This document shows, in pieces, positions 9,191-26,284 of a stretch of 33,691 bases of DNA. Within the stretch, counting starts at the first letter, position 1. Each line of letters starts with the position of its first letter. A model generated the notes under the pieces. The model searched no databases. It was not told the origin of the DNA and saw nothing but the letters and a program-made list of their open reading frames with translations. Origin of the DNA: Ilumatobacteraceae bacterium (GTDB taxonomy: Bacteria > Actinomycetota > Acidimicrobiia > Acidimicrobiales > Ilumatobacteraceae); contig JANYKU010000026.1 of the NCBI GenBank assembly GCA_025358075.1, forward strand, positions 1 to 33,691. Reading direction: 5' to 3'. The translations under genes were made by a program, and so were the position numbers.

Positions 9191-10993
9191 GTGACCCCTG
9201 TAGTAGTGGGTGCCCTGGCGGGGTGCTGCCAGGTATGGCGATCGTGGGCGCGTGTGTTGCTGGTGGCGAGGTGACGGTTTCAGTGTGATCGCGTTTGGTT
9301 GAGGCGCAATCGCTGTGCTGACGGTCTGCTGCGACGGGTCTGGACGGTCCTGTCGACGGTTCAGCTCGTTGTTGTCGCCCATTGACTGCCGTTGAAGGTC
9401 ACGCCGAGGGTGACCAAACGCGCAAGGTTGATGGCGGCAGCGCGAGTTTCGACGTCGGTGGCGACGCGTCGTCGACCGCGGGTGCGTGCTTTACGTCCAC
9501 CCCACGCGACGCGCACGAAGTGGGCGATCTTGCGCTCCACTTTCGGTCGGGTCGACCGGTACGCGTGCTGCCACTCGGGGTCGGCCTGCGCGTTCTTGGC
9601 GCGCTGCAGTATCGCTTCTTTCGGATGGATCGTGACCGAACGCCCTTTGGTCGATGTGGTGCACCGCTCGGGTGACGGGCACCCGGCGCAGTGTTCGGCG
9701 AAGTCGGCTCGGCCAGCACCATCCGGGCTGCGGCGGATGTTGACGACGTGACCGGCCGGGCAACCAACGCTGTCTGCGTCCAAGTTGATGGTGAAGTCGT
9801 CTTTGCCGAACAGGCCAGCACGCCCGCTGGCCGGTGGGACCTTGGCGATCAGATCGAACCCGGCCTGGGCCAGATCATCGAGCGTGTCCGCGCCCGCGTA
9901 CGCGGAGTCGCCCATCACCGTTGGTTTGACCTCGTCGTCGGCGTGACCGGCGATCAGATCGTGGACTGCGTCGGCGTCATGGATGTTGGCTGGGGTGACG
10001 ACCACGTCGTCGATCAACTCCGAGTCCGGGTCGACCGACAGATGCGCCTTGTAACCATCGAAGCGGCGGTTACGCGACTTGTGACCGTGACGCGCTTGCG
10101 GGTCGACCGTGGAGATGATCCGGTCACGGGCCACTTTGCGGGCGATCCGGAACAGACCGTCATCACCCTGTTCGACGTCTTGGCCAGCAACGAGCGCCAA
10201 CAGCTCGGCCGCCTCGCCGACCGGGCCGATCAGCACCTCACCATCCAACACGGCCAGCGCGGCGAGCGCGTCGCCGACCAGCGCGTCGACGAGGACCTCG
10301 CGGGCTTCGCGATCATCCCAATCACAGGCCGGTTTGCCCGGCCCGACATAGTCGTCGTCACGAACCAATGCCGCCCGCACCCGCCCCGCGAGCGGCGAGC
10401 CGTCCAATGCCCGAAGCAGCTTGCGGATCGCGGACCGCAACTGGGTCACCGTGTCCTGTGTCGAGACCGCGTCATAGATCGGGGTCGAGTCCAACACCCG
10501 CACCCGGTCGCGCATCACGCCCGCCTCACGAGCAACAACCTTGGTGTCTTCCAAGAATCGTTTCGGCCGATCCGACGCCCGCAACCGGTTGCGTTGACCA
10601 ACTAGCACCGTTGGATGGAAACCGCGATAGCCGGCATCGACCCCGGCCGCGGCCTGCCAACGCAGATCGCATTCGAGATGATCGACCGCTTCTTGATCCG
10701 ACAGACCCTCCAACGACTGCAGCACCATCACCGTTGCCAACACCCGCGCCGGCACCGTCGGCCGACCGAGCCGCGAGTTCTTGTAGCAATCAGCAAAGTA
10801 GTCGTCACCGAACAAGCGGACGCCGTGCTCGGCCAACAGGCGATACACGCCTTTCAACCGGTCACCGAGCAGCTCCCTCGGATTCTCGAAACGCTGCCCC
10901 ACCGGTGCCGACCCCAAAGCCATATGAGCATCCTATTTTCGCGGGTCACCACCCGCCAGGGACCCCCAACAGAACGACTACTTCAGGACTCAC
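9191..10993 (-). mobile_element. Complete IS1182-type insertion sequence
   Basis: The element is 1803 bp. Its left end GTGACCCCTGTAGTAG (from 9191) matches the reverse complement of its right end, GTGAGTCCTGAAGTAG (ending 10993), at 13 of 16 positions, and TCCCTGGCGGG-like sequences recur inside both ends. CTAG flanks it at 9187-9190 and 10994-10997, consistent with a 4-bp target duplication. Because CTAG is palindromic, these bases could instead belong to the terminal repeats (CCCTAGGTGA on both sides). One full-length transposase fills most of it. Stem-loops lie near both ends (CCTGGC/GCCAGG near the left, CGGGT/ACCCG near the right). The element looks intact and therefore probably recent. 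Confidence 0.82.
9361..10923 (-). CDS. IS1182 family DDE transposase
   Basis: 520 residues, full length. The N-terminal DUF772-type region (PVGQRFENPRELLGDRLKG, then RPTVPARVLATVMVLQSLEG and LSDQEAVDHLECDLRWQAA) is followed by the DDE catalytic domain. Candidate catalytic residues are Asp145 (VLDSTPIYDA), the Asp of TVMGDSAYAG and the Glu of RSTRPKVERKIAHFVRV. A cysteine cluster (GCPAGH, HCAGCPSPERC) is typical of the family. AGGA lies upstream of the ATG at 10923. The enzyme cuts and joins the ends at 9191 and 10993. No frameshift or stop interrupts it, so it should be active. Confidence 0.9.
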   Translation of the reverse strand: MALGSAPVGQRFENPRELLGDRLKGVYRLLAEHGVRLFGDDYFADCYKNSRLGRPTVPARVLATVMVLQSLEGLSDQEAVDHLECDLRWQAAAGVDAGYRGFHPTVLVGQRNRLRASDRPKRFLEDTKVVAREAGVMRDRVRVLDSTPIYDAVSTQDTVTQLRSAIRKLLRALDGSPLAGRVRAALVRDDDYVGPGKPACDWDDREAREVLVDALVGDALAALAVLDGEVLIGPVGEAAELLALVAGQDVEQGDDGLFRIARKVARDRIISTVDPQARHGHKSRNRRFDGYKAHLSVDPDSELIDDVVVTPANIHDADAVHDLIAGHADDEVKPTVMGDSAYAGADTLDDLAQAGFDLIAKVPPASGRAGLFGKDDFTINLDADSVGCPAGHVVNIRRSPDGAGRADFAEHCAGCPSPERCTTSTKGRSVTIHPKEAILQRAKNAQADPEWQHAYRSTRPKVERKIAHFVRVAWGGRKARTRGRRRVATDVETRAAAINLARLVTLGVTFNGSQWATTTS

Positions 10994-13444: not shown

Positions 13445-14068
13445 ATGTTCGTCACACGCCACAACGCGGCGGTCGAACGCGGCCTGCTGGAGCGCCTGTG
13501 GGACCTGTACGAGCTCGCCTACCGACGAACCGCCGAGGAATCGGCCAGCCGGGAGATGTTCTTCCGGTCGGAGTTCGACTCGGCAATCGCCGATCCGACC
13601 AACCGGCTGTGGGTGCTGTGGGCCGATGACGAGCCGGTGGCGATGGTCCTGATCGCCACCGATATCAGCTCCACCCGGTATCTCAGTGCTCCCTTCTTCG
13701 AACGGCGGTTCACCGATCATTCGCGTCGCGGAGCGGTGCACTACGTCCTCTTCGTCGTGGTGCACCCGCGCTACGCCGCCAGGGGAGCGCTGACCCGTAT
13801 GGCTCGCGACGTGCTGGGCACCGAGGCCGCAGAAGGGGTGTTGCTGGTGTTCGACTCGCCGGCGGTCAACCAACCGAACGACGATGGCGGCGCCGCCCTG
13901 CTCTTCGAGCGTCTTGCAAACATGGTGGCGAGCGGAGCGCCGCTGATACCGCTCGACGTTTCGCGCTACTACGGCATCGACTTTGCAGCCAGTTCGGCAT
14001 ACGTCGACACTTCGTCGCCCGCGGCCGAGCGCACCCCCACGCCGGTGCCCGTACCTGCTCGGCGATAG
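13445..14068 (+). CDS. GNAT-like protein of unknown substrate
   Basis: 207 residues. The run VHYVLFVVVHPRYAARGALTRMARDVL (about 100-126) resembles strand 4 and the acetyl-CoA loop of GNAT acyltransferases, followed by an Asn-rich segment typical of strand 5 (FDSPAVNQPN). Earlier strands (LWVLWADDEPVAMVLIATDI) fit the same fold. No catalytic residue can be named. The ATG at 13445 is chosen because the compact domain starts there and AAAGG lies upstream; an upstream in-frame ATG would add 36 unlikely residues. Transcription probably comes from the bidirectional element at 13368-13374. The C-terminus is Pro/Thr-rich. The gene could be an acyltransferase or a fold relative without activity. Confidence 0.6.
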   Translation: MFVTRHNAAVERGLLERLWDLYELAYRRTAEESASREMFFRSEFDSAIADPTNRLWVLWADDEPVAMVLIATDISSTRYLSAPFFERRFTDHSRRGAVHYVLFVVVHPRYAARGALTRMARDVLGTEAAEGVLLVFDSPAVNQPNDDGGAALLFERLANMVASGAPLIPLDVSRYYGIDFAASSAYVDTSSPAAERTPTPVPVPARR

Positions 14069-14102
14069 AGCTTTCTTGGCGCGCAAACAGATGCAGGTTC
14101 GC

Positions 14103-14108
14103 TACCGT
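14103..14108 (+). promoter_or_regulatory. -10 element TACCGT for the phoH operon
   Basis: TACCGT fits TAnnnT and ends 8 nt before the ATG at 14117 that opens a ten-codon ORF. It is the only good -10 in the short gap before phoH. No convincing -35 is seen. Confidence 0.45.
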
Positions 14109-14116
14109 ATGGGCAA

Positions 14117-14149
14117 ATGAGTCCCAGTACGGGCCTGACCTGCCCATGA
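14117..14149 (+). CDS. Leader ORF 1 of phoH (10 codons)
   Basis: ATG to TGA, encoding MSPSTGLTCP. It begins 8 nt after TACCGT, so it would be read from a leaderless mRNA. Its stop overlaps the start of leader ORF 2 by 4 nt (14146-14149, ATGA). Confidence 0.4.
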   Translation: MSPSTGLTCP

Positions 14150-14166
14150 CCACGCCCACCCAATGA
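14146..14166 (+). CDS. Leader ORF 2 of phoH (6 codons)
   Basis: ATG to TGA, encoding MTTPTQ. It starts in the stop of leader ORF 1 and ends in the start of phoH, both as ATGA. It has no ribosome-binding site of its own, so translation would have to arrive from leader ORF 1. Confidence 0.35.
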   Translation: MTTPTQ

Positions 14167-15131
14167 CCGCCTTCACACGGGTGTACAGCGTCATCGTCCC
14201 AGGTGCTCACCTCACGCCGGCGTTGCTCGGCCAGCGCGATGTCAATCTGCGAATCATCGAGCAGGCGTTCCCGGCTGCAACGATCGTGGTGCGCGGCAAC
14301 GAGATCACGATCGACGGTCCGCAGGCCGAGCTGGTCAGCCGGCTCTTCGAGGAACTGATCGTGCTGCTCCAGGGTGGCCATCATCTTGATGAGGGGACGT
14401 TGCAACGATCGATTGCGATGATGCACGACAACGAACGGCCGAGTGCCGTGCTGACCGACGACATCATGCGCGGCGCCAAGGGTAAGCCGGTGCGACCGAA
14501 GTCGGCCGGCCAGAAGCGGTACATCGATGCGATCCGCAACAACGTGATCACGTTCGGGCTCGGTCCGGCGGGTACCGGCAAGAGTTGGTTGGCGGTGGCG
14601 ATGGCAGTGCAGGCGTTACAGACCAAGCAGGTTCAACGAATCATCCTCACGCGCCCCGCGGTCGAGGCCGGCGAGCGCCTCGGGTTCCTCCCGGGCGACC
14701 TCATGGCCAAGATCGATCCATACCTGCGGCCGCTGTACGACGCGCTCTACGACATGGTCGAGCCCGAGGGCCCGCAGCGTTTGCTCGAACGTCAAGCGGT
14801 CGAGGTGGCGCCGTTGGCGTTCATGCGCGGCAGAACGTTGAACAGCAGCTTCATCATCCTCGACGAGGCCCAGAACGCAACCCCCGAACAGATGAAGATG
14901 TTCCTCACCCGCATCGGGTTCGGCTCGAAGGTGGTCGTCACTGGTGACACCACACAGGTCGACGTTCCGGACGGTCGCAGTGGCCTGCTCGGTCTCGAGC
15001 GCACGCTGGCCGACATCGACGGGCTGGCGTTCGTGCGACTCGGTACCGGCGATGTGGTTCGGCATCGCATCGTGGCCGACATCGTCGCCGCGTACGGTCG
15101 GGCCGACGAACGCAAGGCTGCTCGTGAGTGA
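14163..15131 (+). CDS. phoH: PhoH family ATPase
   Basis: 322 residues, normal length. The family's small N-terminal nucleic-acid-binding region ([20 protein letters not shown] and RGNEITIDG) precedes a P-loop ATPase with Walker A GPAGTGKS (134-141) and Walker [10 protein letters not shown] (230-238), then [12 protein letters not shown] (258-269). PhoH proteins are cytoplasmic RNA-acting ATPases that repeatedly sit beside ybeY, as here. An in-frame stop at 14136 limits the start to the ATG at 14163, which has no Shine-Dalgarno sequence but overlaps the stop of a six-codon ORF. The stop overlaps the ybeY start by 8 nt, so phoH, ybeY and the CorC-type gene form one coupled operon. Confidence 0.93.
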
Positions 15132-15723
15132 TGACGGCCGTCCACGACTGGCGCGCCCTCAGCGTGTCGGTGGCGACGGGGTTCCTGAGGTGTTCTGTGC
15201 TGATGAGCAGGCCGACCTACGAGTCGATCTCGCACGTTGGCAACAGCTCGCCTTCGAAGTGTTGATCGCCGAAGGGGTGCGCGGCTTGGCCGAGTTGGCA
15301 GTCCTGTTCGTCAGCGAACGCGAGATGGCCGAGCTCAACGACAGCTACATGGGCAAGCCCGGGGCGACCGACGTGCTGGCCTTCCCCATCGATGCCGCCG
15401 AAGCGGAGATCGTGCAGCACGGACAGCCGCCGAGTCGCGGGCCCGACCGGGCGCCGCCGGATCCGGCCGACATGCCGCTGTTGCTCGGCGACGTGGTGAT
15501 CTGTCCGGCGGTCGCCGCTCGGCAGGCGCCGGATCACGCCGGCACCGTCGACGACGAACTGGCGCTGCTGGTCGTTCACGGTGTGTTGCACGTCCTCGGT
15601 CATGATCATGCCGAGGCGCCCGAGCGACTTGCCATGCAGGCCCGCGAACGGCAGTTGCTCGAACAGCATCACTGGCATGGCGACGCGCCTGCCGGCTTTC
15701 GTCAGGAGCACCTCGCTCGATGA
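15124..15723 (+). CDS. ybeY: Endoribonuclease YbeY, rRNA maturation factor
   Basis: 199 residues from GTG 15124. The metal-binding signature VVHGVLHVLGHDH is intact, with its three histidines for zinc, and the preceding substrate region (MGKPGATDVLAFPID) is normal. YbeY is needed for 16S rRNA 3' end maturation and ribosome quality control. The start is uncertain: GTG 15124 overlaps the phoH stop, while GTG 15190 (before FCADEQADL) would give the usual short N-terminus of the family. Either way the gene is translationally coupled to phoH. The stop overlaps the next start as ATGA (15720-15723). The middle (about 100-125) has a Pro-rich insertion compared with short YbeY proteins. Confidence 0.92.
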   Translation: MSDDGRPRLARPQRVGGDGVPEVFCADEQADLRVDLARWQQLAFEVLIAEGVRGLAELAVLFVSEREMAELNDSYMGKPGATDVLAFPIDAAEAEIVQHGQPPSRGPDRAPPDPADMPLLLGDVVICPAVAARQAPDHAGTVDDELALLVVHGVLHVLGHDHAEAPERLAMQARERQLLEQHHWHGDAPAGFRQEHLAR

Positions 15724-17018
15724 TCGCCTTCAACAACACCGACATGCTGATGCTGCTCACGATCTTCGGTTTGTTGGTCGTGCTGATCTTCACGTCCATC
15801 GCCGAGATGGGGTTGTCGCGGATCACCAAGACGAAGGCCGCCTCGCTGACGGCCGGCGGTCACAAGTCGGCTCGCACGTTGCAGAAACTGGTCAGCGCCC
15901 CCGAACGATGGGTCAACCCGTTGCTGTTGACCATCAACGTGTGCCAGACGGTGCAGGCGACGCTCACCGGCATCCTCTCGGCACGGTTGTGGGGCACCTA
16001 CGGCGTCATCCTCGGCGTCATCGCCAACGTGGTGGTGTTCTTCGTCCTGGCCGAGGCCGTGCCGAAGACCTATGCCGTGCTCCATCCGCAGAAGGCTGCG
16101 CTCGCCACGGCGAGGGCGACGGCCGCGCTTGTTGCGTTCCCACCACTGCGGCTGATCTCGCGTGGGCTCATCGGTCTGACGAACGTGTTGGTTCGTGGCA
16201 AGGGCCTCGAGCAAGGTCCGTTCGTGTCGGAGTCCGAGCTGCTCGGGATCGTGGAGGTCGCCGCCGAGGATGGTGTGGTCGAGCATGAAGAGCGGGAGCT
16301 CATCGAGAGCATCATCGAGTTCGGCGACACCGTGGCTCGCGAGGTGATGGTGCCGCGGCCAGACATCGTCACCATCGACGATTCGTCGACCGTGACCGAG
16401 GCGATCGATCTGGCGATCGCCCATGGCTTCAGTCGCCTGCCAGTGCTCGGCAGCGGTGGCGACGATGACGTCATCGGGATCACCTACACGAAAGACTTGA
16501 TGCGCGCCGAGCGTCTCGACGAGGGTGACCACTTGATCACCGAGTTCGTGCGCGTCGCTCGATTCGTACCCGAGAACAAGCCGGTCAGCCGATTGATGCG
16601 CGAGATGCAGGCCGAGAAGTTCCACGTGGCGTTGGTGGCCGACGAGTACGGGGCACTGTCGGGTCTGATCACCCTCGAGGACTGCCTGGAGGAACTGGTC
16701 GGCGAGATCGTCGACGAGCACGACGAAGAAGACACGGAAGTTCAGCGTCTCGCCGACGGCGACTACTCGGTCGACGGCGGCATGAGCATCTCCGATCTCA
16801 ACGATCTGCTCGACACCGAGATCCCGGATGACGATTGGGAAACGGTTGCCGGATTCCTCTTCGGCACGCTCGAGCACGTGCCCGATGCGGGGGAGAACGT
16901 GACGCGCGACGGTTGGCGCTTTACGGCGACGGAAGTCGAGGGCCGGCGAATTCGACGCGTCGAGGTCAGCCGCCAGCCGGCAGTCGACGCCTCGCCGCTG
17001 GAGATCGACACCCGGTAG
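15720..17018 (+). CDS. CorC/HlyC-type membrane protein with CBS pair
   Basis: 432 residues. The N-terminal DUF21 (CNNM) domain has about four membrane segments (5-140). Two CBS domains follow (about 205-325, with EVMVPRPDIVTIDD and LVADEYGALSGLITLEDCLEELVGEI as family marks), then the C-terminal CorC_HlyC domain (about 340-425). These proteins are linked to magnesium or cobalt efflux; the old haemolysin name is not informative. The ATG overlaps the ybeY stop (ATGA). The order phoH-ybeY-corC is conserved across many bacteria and supports the calls. The stop codon TAG is also the first half of the -10 of the next gene. Confidence 0.9.
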   Translation: MIAFNNTDMLMLLTIFGLLVVLIFTSIAEMGLSRITKTKAASLTAGGHKSARTLQKLVSAPERWVNPLLLTINVCQTVQATLTGILSARLWGTYGVILGVIANVVVFFVLAEAVPKTYAVLHPQKAALATARATAALVAFPPLRLISRGLIGLTNVLVRGKGLEQGPFVSESELLGIVEVAAEDGVVEHEERELIESIIEFGDTVAREVMVPRPDIVTIDDSSTVTEAIDLAIAHGFSRLPVLGSGGDDDVIGITYTKDLMRAERLDEGDHLITEFVRVARFVPENKPVSRLMREMQAEKFHVALVADEYGALSGLITLEDCLEELVGEIVDEHDEEDTEVQRLADGDYSVDGGMSISDLNDLLDTEIPDDDWETVAGFLFGTLEHVPDAGENVTRDGWRFTATEVEGRRIRRVEVSRQPAVDASPLEIDTR

Positions 17019-19147: not shown

Positions 19148-20254
19148 CTAGGTCGTGAGCCGATGTCGAAGGACCTTGCCAGATGTCGTCGTTGGCAAGC
19201 TGCTGACGATGCGGACTTCTTTGGGCGCCATGAACCCTGGAAGGGACTCGGTGACGCACGACCGAATCGACGCCAAGGTCGGCGGCGTCGAGTGGTCGAC
19301 GGGCACGATCCAGGCGACGACTCGCTCGCCCCACTCGACGTCGGGTACCCCGGCGACGGCCACCTCGGCGACGCCGGGATGGCCGGCCAACGAGGCCTCG
19401 ACCGTTGCCGGCCACACGTTCTCACCGCCGGTGATGATCAGTTCGTCACGCCTGCCGCGCACCTTCAACCGACCATCGTCATCGATGTCTCCGAGGTCGC
19501 CAGTTGCGAACCAGCCGTCGGCCACGGGCTGCGACCCGTCGCGATAGCTGCGCAACAGCATCGGGCAGCGCAGATGGATCTCACCGAGTGGATCGATGCG
19601 CACATCGACACCGTCGAGCGGGAATCCGTCGTACACCACGCCGCTTCCGGTCTCGGTCATCCCATAGGTGGTGACGACGTTGCTCGGTAGATCACCGGGT
19701 GGACGTGATCCGCCGAGGACGATGCGCCGAAAGATGCTCGGGTCGACGCGCCGCAGCGCCGTCGGTACCAACGAGACCAACGTGGCCCCATCGGCGGCCG
19801 CGTCGCTGACCGCCCGGGCATCGAATCCATCGTGCACGACGACGCGGGCTTCGGTCGCAATGGCGCGGGTGATCACGGACAGCCCGCCGATGTGTGACAG
19901 CGGCAGGCAGGCGAGCCAGGTGTCGGTTGTTGTCACGGCAAGTCGCGCCGACGTGGCGCGGGCCGAGGCCCGGACCGCGTCGTGGGTCAAGACGACACCG
20001 CGCGGCGTGCCGGTGGTTCCGCTAGTGGCGACGACAAGTGCGTCGCCGTCTTCGACGCCGCGGCCTTCGAGCTCGTGGACGCCGCGCTCGTCGACCAGCC
20101 GATCGGGAGCAATCGCGGTCAGCGTCGTTCGGCGTGCCACCGGCGGAAGGCGCCGATCGAGCGGGAACGCGGCGTCGCCCGCATCCCAGATCCGCAGCAG
20201 CGCGTCGACAAAACCTGGGCCCCCCGGGAGATCGATCGCAACGAGGTGCGGCAC
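19148..20254 (-). CDS. menE: o-Succinylbenzoate-CoA ligase MenE
   Basis: 368 residues, the short form of this AMP-forming ligase seen in actinobacteria. It activates o-succinylbenzoate to its CoA ester in the menaquinone pathway. Motifs are VATSGTTGTPRGVVLTHD (about 75-92), the aromatic/acidic TTYGMTETGSG, GWFATGDLGDIDDDGRLKVRGRRDELIITGGENV and the C-terminal Lys of TTTSGKVLRHR. The MenE call rests on length and on adjacency to menA; motif alone would allow a generic acyl-CoA ligase. GTG 20254 lies 7 nt after TAGCCT on this strand and only 24 bp from the divergent menA start. The MFS gene unit lies 72 bp downstream. Confidence 0.87.
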   Translation of the reverse strand: MPHLVAIDLPGGPGFVDALLRIWDAGDAAFPLDRRLPPVARRTTLTAIAPDRLVDERGVHELEGRGVEDGDALVVATSGTTGTPRGVVLTHDAVRASARATSARLAVTTTDTWLACLPLSHIGGLSVITRAIATEARVVVHDGFDARAVSDAAADGATLVSLVPTALRRVDPSIFRRIVLGGSRPPGDLPSNVVTTYGMTETGSGVVYDGFPLDGVDVRIDPLGEIHLRCPMLLRSYRDGSQPVADGWFATGDLGDIDDDGRLKVRGRRDELIITGGENVWPATVEASLAGHPGVAEVAVAGVPDVEWGERVVAWIVPVDHSTPPTLASIRSCVTESLPGFMAPKEVRIVSSLPTTTSGKVLRHRLTT

Positions 20255-20261
20255 GGTCAGA

Positions 20262-20271
20262 AGGCTACGGT
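20262..20271. promoter_or_regulatory. Shared leaderless divergent promoter of menE and menA
   Basis: The minus-strand -10 TAGCCT (20267 to 20262) and plus-strand -10 TACGGT (20266-20271) overlap by two bases. Each ends exactly 7 nt before a GTG, at 20254 for menE and 20279 for menA. Both mRNAs would therefore begin at the start codon, and the two polymerases cannot bind together. No -35 is recognisable for either. Confidence 0.55.
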
Positions 20272-20278
20272 GGCGGCC

Positions 20279-21145
20279 GTGAATCGGTGGATACTCGGCG
20301 CCCGCCCGCGCACCCTTCCTGCGGCGGTCGTGCCGGTAGCAATCGGTGCCGGTGCTGCCGCGGGCGGCCCGTCGCCGGTGTGGTGGCGGGTGCTCCCTGC
20401 GTTGGTCGTCAGCCTGGCGTTACAGGTCGGCGTGAACTACGCCAACGACTACAGCGATGGAGTGCGCGGCACCGACGACGTTCGAGTTGGTCCGGCGCGG
20501 CTTGTGGCCGGAGGCCTGGCCAAGCCCAGTCATGTCAAGGCCGCAGCACTCGCAGCATTCGGTGTTGCTGCACTCGCCGGATTGTCGTTGGCGCTGGCGA
20601 CCACCTGGTGGCTGGTCGCTGTCGGGCTGGTGGCGATGCTTGCCGGCTGGGGCTATACCGGCGGGCCGAAGCCCTACGGCTATCTCGGCCTCGGCGAGCT
20701 CTTCGTGTTTGTCTTCTTCGGCCTCGTGGCGACGGTCGGCACGACGTATGTGGTGATCGAAGGGTTTCCGGCTCGTGCGTGGGTTGCGGGATGCGTTGCC
20801 GGGTTCCTCGCCTGCGCCCTGCTCGTCGTCAACAACCTGCGTGACATCCCAACGGACCGTGCGGCCGGCAAACGCACGTTGGCGGTTCGCCTGGGGGATC
20901 ATCGAACTCGATGGCTCTACGTCGGTTGCGTTCTTGCCGCGGCCGCATCGATCATCGTCATCGCGGTCGTGTGGCGGCGGTGGACCGCGCTCGGTCTGCT
21001 CGGTCTGCTCGTGGCCTTGGCGCCGATCCGGTTGGTTCGCGATGGAGCGGAAGGCAAGCAGCTGATCGCTGTTCTGGGCGCTACCGGTCGCACCCAACTC
21101 GCCGTCGGGATCCTGGTCGCAGTCGGCCTCGCACTGTCCTCCTAG
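20279..21145 (+). CDS. menA: 1,4-Dihydroxy-2-naphthoate polyprenyltransferase MenA
   Basis: 288 residues, normal length, with about eight or nine membrane helices. It attaches the polyprenyl tail to dihydroxynaphthoate in the membrane. The start (NRWILGARPRTLPAAVVPV) is diagnostic for MenA. The first Asp-rich prenyl-diphosphate motif is NYANDYSDGVRGTDD (about 45-60) and the second region is NNLRDIPTDRAAGKRTLAVRLG (about 187-208). GTG 20279 is chosen over GTG 20270 because it lies 7 nt after the -10 TACGGT and matches the family start. The gene is followed by two hairpin repeats that separate it from the convergent menH. Confidence 0.93.
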   Translation: MNRWILGARPRTLPAAVVPVAIGAGAAAGGPSPVWWRVLPALVVSLALQVGVNYANDYSDGVRGTDDVRVGPARLVAGGLAKPSHVKAAALAAFGVAALAGLSLALATTWWLVAVGLVAMLAGWGYTGGPKPYGYLGLGELFVFVFFGLVATVGTTYVVIEGFPARAWVAGCVAGFLACALLVVNNLRDIPTDRAAGKRTLAVRLGDHRTRWLYVGCVLAAAASIIVIAVVWRRWTALGLLGLLVALAPIRLVRDGAEGKQLIAVLGATGRTQLAVGILVAVGLALSS

Positions 21146-21148
21146 CCC

Positions 21149-21196
21149 TGTGGAGTGTTTCGACGTACCCAGGTAGGCGGCACGAACAACTCCACA
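21149..21196. repeat. Dispersed hairpin repeat, copy 2
   Basis: TGTGGAGTGTTTCG (21149-21162) pairs, with two mismatches, with CGAACAACTCCACA (21183-21196). The loop holds GTACCCAGGTAGGC, the reverse complement in part of the copy 1 loop. It begins 4 nt after the menA stop. Confidence 0.75.
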
Positions 21197-21203
21197 CCCG
21201 ACG

Positions 21204-21248
21204 TGTGGAGTGTTTCGGCGTACCCAGGGTGTGCTGAACAACTCCACA
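21204..21248. repeat. Dispersed hairpin repeat, copy 3
   Basis: TGTGGAGTGTTTCGGC (21204-21219) pairs, with a few mismatches, with GCTGAACAACTCCACA (21233-21248). It lies in tandem with copy 2, and the outermost bases of the pair, CCCTGTGGAG (21146-21155) and CTCCACAGGG (21242-21251), are also perfect inverted repeats. It sits before the menH stop and may end transcription from both sides. Confidence 0.75.
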
Positions 21249-21262
21249 GGGACGGGGTCAGG

Positions 21263-22042
21263 TCACCAGTTGAGGTCGTTCAGCCAGCTGCGCAGCAGGG
21301 CAATGACTCGATCGGGATCCTGTAGATGGGCGGCGTGTCCGGCACCGGCGATCTCCTCGAAGCGACCGTCGGGCACGCTCGCCCCGATCCGTCGACCGAT
21401 CTCGACGTACTTCTCGTCGTGTTCGCCGGCCATCGCCAGGACGGGCATGCCGAGCTCGCCCAGCCGCGACCACAGGGAATCCTGCGCTCCGGTTCCGGCG
21501 AGCCGCAGGCTGGTGGCCAAGCCGTTGGCGGAGTTCCTGAGCCGATCGGCGCGTTGTTGGTCATCCAGACGCAACCCGGCGAACAACGGCTGGGCCAGCC
21601 AATCGTCGAGGAAGGCTTCGACACCGATTCGTTCGACCTTGTCGGCCAGCTTCTCGTCAGCTTCGCGGCGCGCAGCACGTTCGGTGTCGTCGGCGATTCC
21701 GGGAGATGCGCCGACGAGCCCGAGACCTCGGACCAGCTGAGGGTGCAACACGGCGGCATGGAGGCACAAGCGTGCGCCCAGGCTGTAGCCGATGTAGACG
21801 CCCCGGCCGCACTGCGACGTGAGCAGCCCGGCCGTCGCGGCAAGATCGGTGCGAACCTCGCTGGACTCACCATGGCCGGGTTGATCGACGACGATCGACT
21901 CGTAACCGTTTGCCGCGAGATGCGCGGCGATCGGCTTCCACGAACTGCCGGTCTGCGTGAATCCATGGACGAACACCAGTCGAGGGCCGTGCCCAAGGGT
22001 CCATCCGGCGAGCTCGCCGGTGAAACGCCGCCACTCAGACAT
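21263..22042 (-). CDS. menH: SHCHC synthase MenH (alpha/beta hydrolase)
   Basis: 259 residues. The fold marks are the oxyanion strand FVHGFTQTGSSW, VVDQPGHGES and the nucleophile elbow GYSLGARL with Ser87. An acidic residue in GEHDEKY and the His of GAGHAAH complete the triad. The segment ERAARREADEKLADKVE then FLDDWLAQPLFAGL matches the lid of MenH, which removes pyruvate from the MenD product. That lid and the position among men genes support the name over a generic hydrolase. The ATG at 22042 overlaps the stop of the DsbA-like gene by 8 nt, so the two are translationally coupled and share the 22700-22705 promoter. Confidence 0.87.
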   Translation of the reverse strand: MSEWRRFTGELAGWTLGHGPRLVFVHGFTQTGSSWKPIAAHLAANGYESIVVDQPGHGESSEVRTDLAATAGLLTSQCGRGVYIGYSLGARLCLHAAVLHPQLVRGLGLVGASPGIADDTERAARREADEKLADKVERIGVEAFLDDWLAQPLFAGLRLDDQQRADRLRNSANGLATSLRLAGTGAQDSLWSRLGELGMPVLAMAGEHDEKYVEIGRRIGASVPDGRFEEIAGAGHAAHLQDPDRVIALLRSWLNDLNW

Positions 22043-22691
22043 TGGCGGTTCGTCTGGCGACCACGCTGCGCAGCACCTCCACGAACGTGGCGGGTTCCTG
22101 CGCGCCGGGCACCATCCACTTGCTGTCGAACACGTACGTGGGCACCGCGGTGATGTCCAGTTCCGCAGCGTTCTGCAGCTCGTGGCGAACCTCGGCGAGA
22201 CCGTCGTTGCTGTCGAGGAACGCACGCGTCCGGTCGTGGTCGAGTCCGACGTCAGCGCAGCATGTAGCCAGAACGTCGGGGTCACCGATGTCGAGGCCAT
22301 CGATGAAATATGCCTGCAGCAGGCGTTCCTTCAGGGCGCCTTGGTGGCCTGTCGTCTCGGCCAACCAGAGCAACCGGTGGGCGAGCAACGTGTTGGCGCG
22401 GAGGGCGCGATCCATTCGGAAGTGGAGCCCGCTCTCGGCAGCAATCTGCGTGACGTGATCGATGATTTCCCGGGCGCGCTCGTAGCCACCGAACTTCTTG
22501 GCATAGGTATCGATGACCGGAGCCGACTTGCCCGGCGATGCCGTTGGGTCGAGCTGAAAGGGCCGGAAGACGATGTCGACGTCGATCTCGTCGGCCAGTT
22601 CGGCGACAGCAGTTTCGAAACGACGCTTGCCGATGTAGCACCAGGGGCAGACGACGTCAGACCAGATCTCGACGTCGACGTGGGGGCGCAC
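22035..22691 (-). CDS. DsbA-family (FrnE-like) thioredoxin-fold oxidoreductase
   Basis: 218 residues. A thioredoxin-fold strand (HVDVEIWSDVVCPWCYIGKRRFE) carries a CPWC active site (Cys15, Cys18), followed by the helical insertion of the DsbA group (about 65-150) and the cis-proline segment ITAVPTYVF. There is no signal peptide, so it acts in the cytoplasm, as FrnE-like proteins do. GTG 22691 is chosen because it lies 8 nt after TATCAT and the conserved strand starts right there. The stop overlaps the menH start by 8 nt. No known menaquinone step needs this enzyme. Its coupling to menH and shared control point with menD suggest a redox link, which is only an inference. Confidence 0.87.
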   Translation of the reverse strand: MRPHVDVEIWSDVVCPWCYIGKRRFETAVAELADEIDVDIVFRPFQLDPTASPGKSAPVIDTYAKKFGGYERAREIIDHVTQIAAESGLHFRMDRALRANTLLAHRLLWLAETTGHQGALKERLLQAYFIDGLDIGDPDVLATCCADVGLDHDRTRAFLDSNDGLAEVRHELQNAAELDITAVPTYVFDSKWMVPGAQEPATFVEVLRSVVARRTANV

Positions 22692-22699
22692 GGGAATCG

Positions 22700-22717
22700 A
22701 TGATAGGCGCCTATCGT
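22700..22717. promoter_or_regulatory. Divergent promoter and palindromic operator of dsbA-menH and menD
   Basis: The perfect 14-bp palindrome GATAGGCGCCTATC (22702-22715) overlaps both -10 elements: TATCAT on the minus strand (22705 to 22700), 8 nt before GTG 22691, and TATCGT on the plus strand (22712-22717), 7 nt before ATG 22725. A dimeric repressor bound there would cover both -10s. Some of the symmetry comes from the -10s themselves; the GGCGCC centre does not. Confidence 0.55.
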
Positions 22718-22724
22718 GGCGAAC

Positions 22725-24395
22725 ATGACCTCGTTGCCGCAGGACGTACAGGCCACGTTCTGTGCAACCCTGGTCGACGAGTGGGTGCGTCAGGGGTTGC
22801 GGCACGCAGTCGTTGCGCCCGGTTCGCGGAGCACGCCCATGGCCTTGGCGCTGGCGCAGCGAACCGACATCATCGTTCACGTCTTCCTCGACGAGCGGTC
22901 CGCATCGTTTGCCGCACTCGGGATCGGATGCGCGTCGGGCGTACCCGCGGTGCTGTTGTGCACGAGCGGAACGGCCGCAACCCACTTTCATGGTGCAGTC
23001 GTCGAAGCCCATCAATCGGGTGTTCCGCTCTTGGTGGTCACAGCCGACCGCCCTCCGGAGCTGCACGGCGTCGGCGCACCGCAGACCATCGAACAGGCCA
23101 ACCTGTATGGCGGCGCCGTTCGTTGGTTCCACGATCCCGGCGTGGCCGACGACGACGACCGCGCGTCGTGGAGATCGGTTGCCTCGACGGCGTGGGACCG
23201 AGCACGTGGCACGTCTGCCGGGCCGGTGCACCTCAATCTTGCGTTCCGGGAGCCGCTGGTGGGCGTGACTGGCGCGCTGCCCGAGATTCAGTCCCGGGTG
23301 CCGCTCGATTTGCCTTCGTTCGACCTCGACGGGCTGGTCGGTCTACTCGACACGGCCAGCGGGATCATCGTGGCCGGCAACGGCGTCGATCGCCCCGATG
23401 CTGTGCAGGCGCTCGCCGACGCAACCGGGTGGCCGGTGCTCGCCGACCCGCTCTCGGGCTGCCAGACACTGGATGCGGCGGTCGTGCGCTTCGATGCGAT
23501 CTTGCGCCATCCGGCGTTTGCAGTCGGTCATCGCCCGGCGGCGGTTCTGCAGCTCGGCATGCCACCGGCATCGAAGGTGCTCTCGCTCTGGCTGGCGGAT
23601 TCAGGCGCCAAGCAGGTGGCGGTGTCACCCGTTGGGTTGATCTCCGATCCGAACCTCGTGGGCGCGCGGCAAGTGCACGCGCCGATCAGTGAGTTGTGCG
23701 TGCAGCTCGCGGCAAGGGCGCCTGCTGGGCGTTCGAAGGACTGGCACGACGCTTGGGTCGCCGCAGACCGGGTAGCCAGGTCTGCTCTCGATGTGGTGCT
23801 CGATGCCGAGAAATGCCTGTCGGAACCTGGCACGGCGCGCGCGGCCACGGCAAGCGTGCCGACGGGTGGTCACCTCGTTGTCGCCTCGTCGATGCCCGTG
23901 CGCGATGTCGAGTGGTTCGGCGCGCCGCGCGGCGACATCACCGTCCATTCCAATCGTGGTGCCAATGGAATCGATGGTGTGATCGCGACCGCGATCGGCG
24001 TCGCGATCGGCAGTGGGGCTCCGACGGCGGTGTTGCTCGGTGACGTTGCGTTCTGCCACGACTTGTCGTCACTGGCTGCGCTGCAATCGCGTGGTCTCGA
24101 CCTGACCATCGTCGTCACCGACAACGACGGGGGAGCGATCTTCTCGTTCCTTCCTCAGGCATCGGCCCTTCCCGCCGACCAATTCGAGAAGTTGTTCGGA
24201 ACGCCCCACGGCACCGACATCGTCGAAGTCGCCCGAGCCCTCGGGCTGCGCGCCTACACGGCGAAGTCTGCACGGGACCTTGCCGCGGCCTTCGACGAGC
24301 ATGACATCAGCGTCGTGCGCGTGGCCTCGTCGCGCCGCGAGAACGTCGATGTGCACGCGGCGCTCAACGGCGCGGTCGTCGCCGCGCTGAGCTGA
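22725..24395 (+). CDS. menD: SEPHCHC synthase MenD
   Basis: 556 residues, normal length. MenD joins 2-oxoglutarate to isochorismate using thiamine diphosphate. The N-terminal part has RHAVVAPGSRSTPMALAL (about 25-42) and HVFLDERSASFAALGIG (about 50-66, with the conserved Glu for the cofactor). The C-terminal part has LLGDVAFCHDLSSLAAL and VVTDNDGGAIFSFLPQ, the ThDP/Mg2+ site. The ATG at 22725 is chosen because it lies 7 nt after TATCGT, while a GTG nine bases upstream lies inside the -10. It is divergent from dsbA-menH and convergent with menF, whose stop is 3 bp away. Confidence 0.93.
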   Translation: MTSLPQDVQATFCATLVDEWVRQGLRHAVVAPGSRSTPMALALAQRTDIIVHVFLDERSASFAALGIGCASGVPAVLLCTSGTAATHFHGAVVEAHQSGVPLLVVTADRPPELHGVGAPQTIEQANLYGGAVRWFHDPGVADDDDRASWRSVASTAWDRARGTSAGPVHLNLAFREPLVGVTGALPEIQSRVPLDLPSFDLDGLVGLLDTASGIIVAGNGVDRPDAVQALADATGWPVLADPLSGCQTLDAAVVRFDAILRHPAFAVGHRPAAVLQLGMPPASKVLSLWLADSGAKQVAVSPVGLISDPNLVGARQVHAPISELCVQLAARAPAGRSKDWHDAWVAADRVARSALDVVLDAEKCLSEPGTARAATASVPTGGHLVVASSMPVRDVEWFGAPRGDITVHSNRGANGIDGVIATAIGVAIGSGAPTAVLLGDVAFCHDLSSLAALQSRGLDLTIVVTDNDGGAIFSFLPQASALPADQFEKLFGTPHGTDIVEVARALGLRAYTAKSARDLAAAFDEHDISVVRVASSRRENVDVHAALNGAVVAALS

Positions 24396-24398
24396 GCG

Positions 24399-25574
24399 CT
24401 ACGGCCGCACGATGGCCGACAGCATGGCCTGGAACTTTGCCTGGGTCTCGGCGAGCTCGGCCAGCGGTTCGCTGTCGGCCACGATGCCGCCACCGGCCAC
24501 CAACCGCGCGCATCGGCGATCAGCGGAGAACTCGGCGCATCGAAGCGCGACTGCCCACGTGCCATCGCCCGCGGAGTCGACCCACCCGACGGACCCTGCG
24601 TAGCGACCGCGCTCGAAGCCCTCGACCTCGTCGATCAACGCCAACGCCGCATCCCTAGGGAAGCCGCCGACCGCCGGGGTCGGAGCGAGGGCGCGAACCA
24701 ACTCGAGCACGTTCGGTCGCGGATCGGAGAGGTGGCCTTCCATTCGAGTTCCGAGATGCTGCACGTTGGCGACCGCCACGATCGAGGGCTCGGGCTCCCA
24801 GTCGAGGTAGCTGCACCACGGCAACAGCGTGTCGTGGATCGTGTCGATCACGATCCGGTGCTCTGTCTGGTTCTTGGCGCTGGCCAACAACTCCGCCGCA
24901 GAGCGTTGATCGGTGTCGGGGTCACCCGTTCGCGGTGTGGTGCCGGCGAACGGTTGGGCCCGCACGGTGTTGCCTTTCACGGAGACGAGCAACTCGGGCA
25001 TCGCCCCGACGAACCCATCGATCGAGTATCGAAAGCTCGACCCGAACGACGCCCGGAGTCGCAGCAGCACTGCGTGGATGTCGATGGGCTCGTCACTGCT
25101 GACGCGGATCTCGCGAGCGATGACCGCCTTCGACAACCGGCCGTCGCGCACCGCATCTCGTGCGGCCGAGACCGCGGCCAGGTAGTGATCGATCCGTGTC
25201 AACGGCTCGGTCGTGAAGCTCTGGGCACGGGGCTGTGGCCTCGCCGGCGTGTCGAGGTCGGGTGCGGCGTCGTCGATGGTGGTCACCCATCGGCGGCCAT
25301 CGGCGGCCTTGACCACGGCCATGGCCGGCACGATCAGCTCGCATGGCGAACCTGGTTTGAACGGCACCACGCCGAGGGCCACTGGTCGTGCTCCGTCGGC
25401 TTGGTCATCGTGTTCGATCGCCGCGAGAAATTCTGGCACGTCGTCGATCGAGACTCGAGCAGCAACGCCTCGCCCGGCGATACCCACTCCGTCGCGTACG
25501 AACAAGTAGCCATCGCCGCGAGCGATGTCGTTGAGGTCGACGTCGCGATCGAGCGGTCGACTGAGGGCCCGCAC
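24399..25574 (-). CDS. menF: Isochorismate synthase MenF
   Basis: 391 residues. It converts chorismate to isochorismate, the first step of the pathway. Family marks are GVVPF (about 68), LSKAVIAREI (about 155, the catalytic Lys), SFRYSIDG-FVGAMPELLVSV, QPFAGTTPRTGDPDTD, KNQTEHRIVID and TPAVGGFPRDAALALIDEVEGFERGRYAGSVGW near the C-terminus, which ligate Mg2+. GTG 25574 is chosen: AGGAG lies 9 nt upstream and the start is 5 nt after the ubiE stop. Open frame continues upstream over ubiE but is not protein-like. Isochorismate can also feed siderophores, but the men neighbours argue for menaquinone. Confidence 0.9.
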   Translation of the reverse strand: MRALSRPLDRDVDLNDIARGDGYLFVRDGVGIAGRGVAARVSIDDVPEFLAAIEHDDQADGARPVALGVVPFKPGSPCELIVPAMAVVKAADGRRWVTTIDDAAPDLDTPARPQPRAQSFTTEPLTRIDHYLAAVSAARDAVRDGRLSKAVIAREIRVSSDEPIDIHAVLLRLRASFGSSFRYSIDGFVGAMPELLVSVKGNTVRAQPFAGTTPRTGDPDTDQRSAAELLASAKNQTEHRIVIDTIHDTLLPWCSYLDWEPEPSIVAVANVQHLGTRMEGHLSDPRPNVLELVRALAPTPAVGGFPRDAALALIDEVEGFERGRYAGSVGWVDSAGDGTWAVALRCAEFSADRRCARLVAGGGIVADSEPLAELAETQAKFQAMLSAIVRP

Positions 25575-25579
25575 GAAGG

Positions 25580-26284
25580 TCAGCTCCTGGTGCCCAGTAG
25601 CAATTGGGTGATGCCACCAGAGAGCTGGTGGTGCTGGGCATCGGCGAACCCGGCAGCACGCAGATCCTGGAGCATCTTTGCGGGCGGCGGCAGGTAGGCG
25701 ATGCTCTTCGGCAGGTAGCGATAGGCGGCACCGTCGCTGAGCAAGCCGCCGATCTTCGGCACGACCTTGCCGAAGTAGATGTTGTTGCCCCATCGAATGA
25801 TCTTGCTGCGCGGCACGCCGACGTCGAGCAGGGCGATCCTGCCTCCGGGGCGCACGACCCTGCCGAGCTCCTCGAAGAACCGTGGCAACTCGACCAAGTT
25901 GCGCAAGGCAAACCCGCACGTCGCACCATCGACGGCGTGGTCGGGGAGTGGCAGGCGCAAGATGTCGGTTTGCACTCGCGGTGCCCCACTGCGATCGGCG
26001 GCGAGCATTCCGAAGCTGATGTCGAACGACAGTGGCCGCTGGCCGGCGCGGGCCAGGTCGGTGCACAGGTCGCCCGTGCCGCTGGCCAGATCGATCACGG
26101 TGCTGTCCGCCGGCAGTGCCAGCAGCTTCACGGCCTTGCGTCGCCAGCGCACATCGAGGCGGAACGTCATGATCCGGTTGACGAGGTCGTAGCGCGGCGC
26201 GATTGCGTCGAACATCTGCCGGACCGCCGTGACCTTGTCGTCGCCCTGCGGCAGGGCCTCGCTGTCCCACGCTCGTTTGCTCAC
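25580..26284 (-). CDS. menG: Demethylmenaquinone methyltransferase MenG/UbiE
   Basis: 234 residues. It is a class I SAM methyltransferase that makes menaquinone from demethylmenaquinone. Motifs are VRQMFDAIAPRYDLVNRIMTF (about 20-41, the UbiE signature), VIDLASGTGDLCTDLA (motif I) and AVDGATCGFALRNLVELPRFFEELGRVVRPGGRIALLDVG. The C-terminal part (RYLPKSIAYLPPPAKMLQDLRAAGF) is also typical. GTG 26284 follows TAGCCT by 7 nt. menF starts 5 nt after its stop, so the last and first pathway enzymes share one transcript. Confidence 0.93.
   Translation of the reverse strand: MSKRAWDSEALPQGDDKVTAVRQMFDAIAPRYDLVNRIMTFRLDVRWRRKAVKLLALPADSTVIDLASGTGDLCTDLARAGQRPLSFDISFGMLAADRSGAPRVQTDILRLPLPDHAVDGATCGFALRNLVELPRFFEELGRVVRPGGRIALLDVGVPRSKIIRWGNNIYFGKVVPKIGGLLSDGAAYRYLPKSIAYLPPPAKMLQDLRAAGFADAQHHQLSGGITQLLLGTRS

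Follow-up and report, generated by a model that had tools for sequence, protein, structure and literature searches.

The phoH gene of an Ilumatobacteraceae bacterium is preceded by two tiny open reading frames (ORFs), which are chained to each other and to phoH by ATGA overlaps and would probably deliver ribosomes to the gene, from a predicted leaderless landing site, by two successive hand-overs. The window analysed here is a stretch of 33,691 nucleotides (contig JANYKU010000026.1). On its forward strand, a -10-like hexamer, TACCGT (14103-14108), is predicted to be a leaderless promoter from its sequence, from its recurrence in the family and from the spacing found in the organism's own genome. 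It is followed, after 8 nt, by the ATG (14117) of ORF1 (MSPSTGLTCP, 10 codons plus stop, 14117-14149), a predicted leaderless tiny ORF whose TGA (14147-14149) overlaps the start of ORF2 (MTTPTQ, 6 codons plus stop, 14146-14166) as ATGA at 14146-14149. The TGA of ORF2 (14164-14166), the second relay step, overlaps the phoH ATG (14163) in the same way, as ATGA at 14163-14166. Both tiny ORFs are recognized from the sequence and from relatives, and the hexamer, the 8-nt gap and the two overlaps are read directly. This anatomy had been given letter for letter in an initial annotation of the DNA, and every element was found again on re-reading. As had also been claimed there, phoH has no alternative start: an in-frame stop lies at 14136 (-27), and the ATG at 14163 is the sole start codon from there to codon 4. 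The reported lack of a Shine-Dalgarno (SD) sequence was borne out as well, since the 22 nt preceding phoH gave a duplex energy of +0.7 kcal/mol with a generic anti-SD sequence, compared with -2.8 (weak) for ybeY and -6.6 (good) for corC. An additional ATG at 14109, absent from the initial annotation, opens a reading frame for MGK (14109-14120), the TGA of which overlaps the ATG of ORF1. It abuts the hexamer, at a place where transcription would hardly have begun, and an ATG occurs at that place in 5 of 37 relay leaders; it is treated here as chance.

The leaderless entry at ORF1 predicted in the initial annotation agrees with a proxy drawn from the organism's own genome. In 648 kb (the window included) of 4.4 Mb, a crude gene call from the G+C content by codon position gave 356 putative genes; in 74 of them a candidate start has a TANNNT that ends 6-9 nt ahead of it, against 3-15 in each of ten other spacing bins. 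The 8-nt gap between TACCGT and ORF1 lies on this peak, and we infer that transcription starts at or adjoining 14117. We further infer that ribosomes load, in all likelihood, on ORF1, with which a leaderless message would begin, and that termination and re-initiation would pass them twice, from ORF1 to ORF2 and from ORF2 to phoH, the peptides of the two ORFs themselves being probably of no consequence. A leaderless landing on ORF1 followed by two hand-overs is, judging from the sequences of the window and its relatives, the probable explanation of the leader as a whole. We rejected the idea that this genome uses relays generally: they were found at the leaderless spacing before 5 of the 356 putative genes, compared with 1-5 in nine control bins and 0 in one.

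A PhoH match was found in 149 of 150 genomes of the family, some having only a paralogue or a fragment, and 110 phoH loci, the window included, were examined from 25 genera of Ilumatobacteraceae, a family of the class Acidimicrobiia; 26 of the phoH starts were set by hand, and the counts ignore relatedness. The phoH start reads ATGA in 87 of the 110 loci. Under a fixed classification, which requires TANNNT at 5-11 nt from a following ATG or GTG and adds two longer leaders of genus g14, 44 loci are relays, in which a tiny ORF predicted to be leaderless is linked to phoH through RTGA overlaps alone (35 by one hop, nine by two). In another 25 the hexamer immediately precedes phoH (it lies 12-18 nt before the gene in 2); nine, all of genus g10, are entered from an upstream frame; and 32 belong to no class, including a subgroup of genus g19 (L032, L033, L035 and L036) that has a short leader without ATG. 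The promoter appears to have found two main solutions in the family: the hexamer precedes either phoH itself or a tiny ORF that would lead to it. The tiny-ORF relay into phoH is not chance: when the 80 nt preceding each of the 110 phoH genes were shuffled with dinucleotides preserved, 1.56 relays were expected and 51 observed (42 without g10), and at least two hops were expected in 0.08 and observed in 11 (7 without g10). Genus g10 contributes nine loci to the first of these observed counts and four to the second, and neither count includes the two long g14 leaders. Outside the family, 28 loci of the order and 48 of 80 named loci, at least one of which (L128) is in fact a family member, added a single relay candidate besides L128: L100, whose first ORF starts with GTG. 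The hexamer lies 5-11 nt before a phoH start in 22 of these 76 loci, and the rest, L098 among them, show neither arrangement.

A stricter test took every ATG that stands 6-9 nt behind TANNNT and no more than 100 nt from phoH, and the resulting 44 ATGs are a different set from the 35 and nine relay loci above, the equal number being coincidental. From 37 of the 44, phoH is reached by overlaps alone (28 one-hop, 9 two-hop), whereas 10.8 are expected with a random frame and 22.9 with the ORF length kept; for two hops the corresponding expectations are 0.33 and 0.36. The spacing between ORF1 and phoH, modulo 3, is 2 in 28 cases, 1 in 15 and 0 in one; one-hop spacings differ by multiples of three by definition, and the modulo-3 counts are the actual test. 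Among the seven misses, five stop 11 or 14 nt inside phoH (two in g19, three in g22), one stops 5 nt inside phoH (g3) and one upstream of it (L045). In the g22 loci L025, L028 and L038, and by eye also in L027, which has a GTG start, ORF1 overruns the phoH start to a TAG 14 nt inside the gene; conservation of phoH's own codons may be the only reason that this TAG persists. Exactly 26 nt, or nine codons, separate the ATGs of ORF1 and phoH in 21 of the 28 one-hop leaders (for example, L006-L013 and L020-L024), and ORF1 is 9-10 codons long in 28 of the 37 relays. Nine codons is about the length of mRNA covered by a ribosome.

These regularities bear on the simplest alternative, that ribosomes bind the phoH AUG directly on an SD-less leader of about 46 nt and that the tiny ORFs are passengers. 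Direct binding predicts neither the preferred frame (37 of 44 against 10.8) nor the 26-nt spacing nor the two-hop leaders (9 against 0.33), and we consider it unlikely, even with the points in its favor: the window's leader folds like its shuffles (z 0.23), some g19 relatives retain phoH behind a leader without a tiny-ORF ATG, and many translated small ORFs of Mycobacterium tuberculosis are described as being without evident function (PMC9094748).

The predicted hand-over by 4-nt overlaps, also put forward in the initial annotation, fits with the linkage being kept while the peptide changes. Differences per codon position were compared in 20 loci of four genera, with phoH codons 3-11 as the control. 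For the first, second and third positions they are 0.40, 0.46 and 0.34 in ORF1 and 0.29, 0.10 and 0.42 in phoH in g11; 0.15, 0.43 and 0.25 against 0.05, 0.08 and 0.56 in g21; 0.29, 0.58 and 0.48 against 0.11, 0.15 and 0.70 in g23; and 0.12, 0.25 and 0.14 against 0, 0 and 0.22 in g19, where two loci only are compared. Changes in ORF1 thus show no third-position excess in these 20 loci, and the nearby phoH codons show the coding pattern; at the level of sequence, ORF1 keeps its linkage and its length while its peptide drifts. This is what the annotation had proposed to look for by alignment (persisting overlaps and ORF lengths with a drifting peptide), and it holds for the first hop. The second is confined to particular lineages, and the window's genus is represented by this one genome. 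The tiny ORFs would seem to be selected for frame and length, not for peptide, which is relevant to small-protein calling.

The sole trace of conservation in the ORF1 peptide is a proline at codon 3: 16 of 37 peptides, in five genera, start with MSP, MKP or MNP, a preference that may act at the level of DNA, RNA or peptide. It means that the first codons are not wholly free, as would be expected if ORF1 were an attenuator that senses a peptide or codons and regulates the operon by halting ribosomes under some stress. We regard such an attenuator as highly improbable, given the absence of a third-position excess among ORF1 changes. Furthermore, no hairpin beyond chance was found in the window's leader (14117-14240; z 0.23 against shuffles, this leader only), and an Rfam search of 13900-14400 with E up to 1 gave no match. 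On the fold, the Rfam result and the codon-position pattern together, an attenuator or riboswitch was rejected as a candidate.

The double relay itself, which the initial annotation had described in the window, turns out to be real and to occur in six genera, the window's own included, but it is not the common design of the family, in which one hop prevails (35 against 9 of 110 loci). Two-hop leaders are found in g1 (the window, its only locus), g6 (3 of 10), g11 (1 of 11), g14 (2 of 11), g19 (1 of 10) and g27 (its only locus), so that the second tiny ORF, of 4-10 codons, is present in 9 of 37 relays. Since the assembly behind the window is a draft in 193 contigs and the set includes no further genome of its genus, the second overlap might be an error of sequencing or assembly that has altered a one-hop leader. 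This is hardly credible, because two-hop leaders occur in eight other loci of five other genera; in g6 and in g14 they include nearly identical pairs from different genomes. We also rejected an origin of ORF2 as a duplicated phoH start: in the nine two-hop loci ORF2 matched the phoH start of its own locus no better than it matched other phoH starts, the fraction at least as good being 0.14-0.85.

In every two-hop leader the spacing between ORF1 and phoH is 1 modulo 3, which is a consequence of the geometry of such a chain. Of the 15 ATGs with this spacing, nine have a second tiny ORF, far above the null expectation, and six stop 5-14 nt inside phoH. The simplest and best reading of ORF2 is therefore that of a frame adapter, which would restore the register between ORF1 and phoH. 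A second hop would then be tolerated, two hand-overs still yielding enough PhoH.

Tiny ORFs also bridge an upstream frame to phoH in g10, in which one (VIAS) is present in genomes G085 and G107, two are present in G031 and G047, and none in the other five. In loci L087 and L203 these are MIAT and then MTTD...R, and in L206 and L207 VIAS, each arranged in successive RTGA overlaps from the upstream stop to phoH. The g10 loci were rejected as leaderless relays: in nine of nine, the frame whose end lies shortly ahead of phoH stays open over 90-110 codons, up to the end of the fragment, and by eye it looks like the C-terminus of an upstream acetyltransferase. Since this frame runs on from the upstream gene, the TANNNT motifs matched in these loci are coincidental.

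It is possible, though we hold it only tentatively, that chained tiny ORFs are a reusable frame adapter, a second overlap of start and stop arising wherever drift has shifted the leaderless landing ORF out of frame with its gene, so that a quality-control operon would be entered independently of SD sequences and passed through consecutive terminations. If so, the entry to an operon concerned with RNA and the 16S 3' end would work on ribosomes before YbeY has matured that end.

The operon begins with phoH (PF02562, E 3.5e-90; 14163-15131, forward strand, like the two genes that follow), which has no SD sequence and one possible start. It continues with ybeY (PF02130, E 9.9e-32; 15124-15723), which starts with GTG and overlaps the phoH stop by 8 nt (GTGAGTGA), and with a corC-like gene (Pfam domains CNNM, CBS and CorC_HlyC; 15720-17018), which overlaps ybeY as ATGA and is preceded by AGGAG at 15704-15708. 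YbeY has been implicated in the maturation of the 3' end of 16S rRNA (PMC5101352). An entry that needs no anti-SD would keep working with 16S 3' ends that YbeY has yet to mature, and might let the operon be read by such immature ribosomes; a directly leaderless phoH, as in other members of the family, would serve equally, and entry free of the anti-SD therefore does not explain the tiny ORFs. The suggestion in the initial annotation that two relays make phoH-ybeY-corC output specially sensitive to translation itself is not supported: 25 of 110 loci have the hexamer straight before phoH, and corC has its own AGGAG. Beyond the anatomy, nothing found here speaks for a translation sensor.

Leaderless small ORFs coupled by RTGA are known from mycobacteria, in which they have been described as over-represented, with one example in which the linkage is conserved and the peptide is not (Shell et al. 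2015, PMC4633059). ORF1 and ORF2, at 10 and 6 codons, lie within the 5-50 codons of that class, and its overlap of TGA with RTG is present at both 14163-14166 and 14146-14149. The phoH leader shares with those described by Shell et al. a small, unannotated ORF with a leaderless RTG (predicted here) and a TGA overlapping the RTG of the next gene. In contrast, the cases described there have one small ORF per gene, whereas here there are two in tandem, and one gene is concerned across 25 genera. Neither "phoH" nor "Rv2368" appears in the main text of that paper. Among the literature matches listed on coupled, tandem and phoH-related cases and on leaderless work in Acidimicrobiia, no tandem relay was recognized. 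We therefore class the one-hop phoH leader as a further case of the known mycobacterial kind, and the tandem arrangement, together with its fixation on phoH, as an apparently new form of it.

A 2025 review repeats the idea of ribosome delivery and cites mycobacterial interspersed repetitive units, or MIRUs (PMC12548453), which resemble the phoH leader as described there, in having a small ORF at the gene start and -4 nt coupling that likely keeps the gene translated. However, MIRUs are repeated elements, and the phoH leader has no second copy in its own genome: a DNA search with 13900-15200 at E 0.001 returned two further matches inside phoH and none in the leader. In a synthetic leaderless bicistronic design for Corynebacterium glutamicum, removal of the fore-cistron AUG is reported to lower output (PMC10367133). 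There, as predicted here, a leaderless fore-cistron hands ribosomes to the downstream gene, but the design is synthetic and its enhanced output, as described, also needed an active SD motif, of which phoH has none. The ATGA gene pairs treated by Huber et al. (2019, PMC6728339) likewise have a 4-nt stop/start overlap that couples the translation of neighbors; those are pairs of genes, with an intragenic SD used in many groups, whereas the ORFs here have 6 and 10 codons and no SD. As the same gene is served by zero, one or two tiny ORFs in relatives, the family offers a natural replicated experiment on translational coupling, in which one can ask what each hand-over costs in output, whether one ribosome re-initiates twice and why nine codons are preferred.

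Elsewhere in the window, a possible leaderless small ORF, MRNKHSGHVSFLVGDAPR with its stop, lies upstream of an MFS transporter gene (PF05977, PF07690; 17794-19075, reverse strand); it follows TAAGGT and overlaps the GTG of the transporter as GTGA. The cluster at 19148-26284 contains AMP-binding ligase, UbiA, alpha/beta hydrolase, TPP enzyme, chorismate-binding and UbiE domains, presumably for menaquinone synthesis. A DDE transposase (PF01609, PF13751, DUF772) is encoded at 9361-10923 on the reverse strand, with an EF-G-like gene on one side and, on the other, a gene that by eye resembles GGDEF/EAL.
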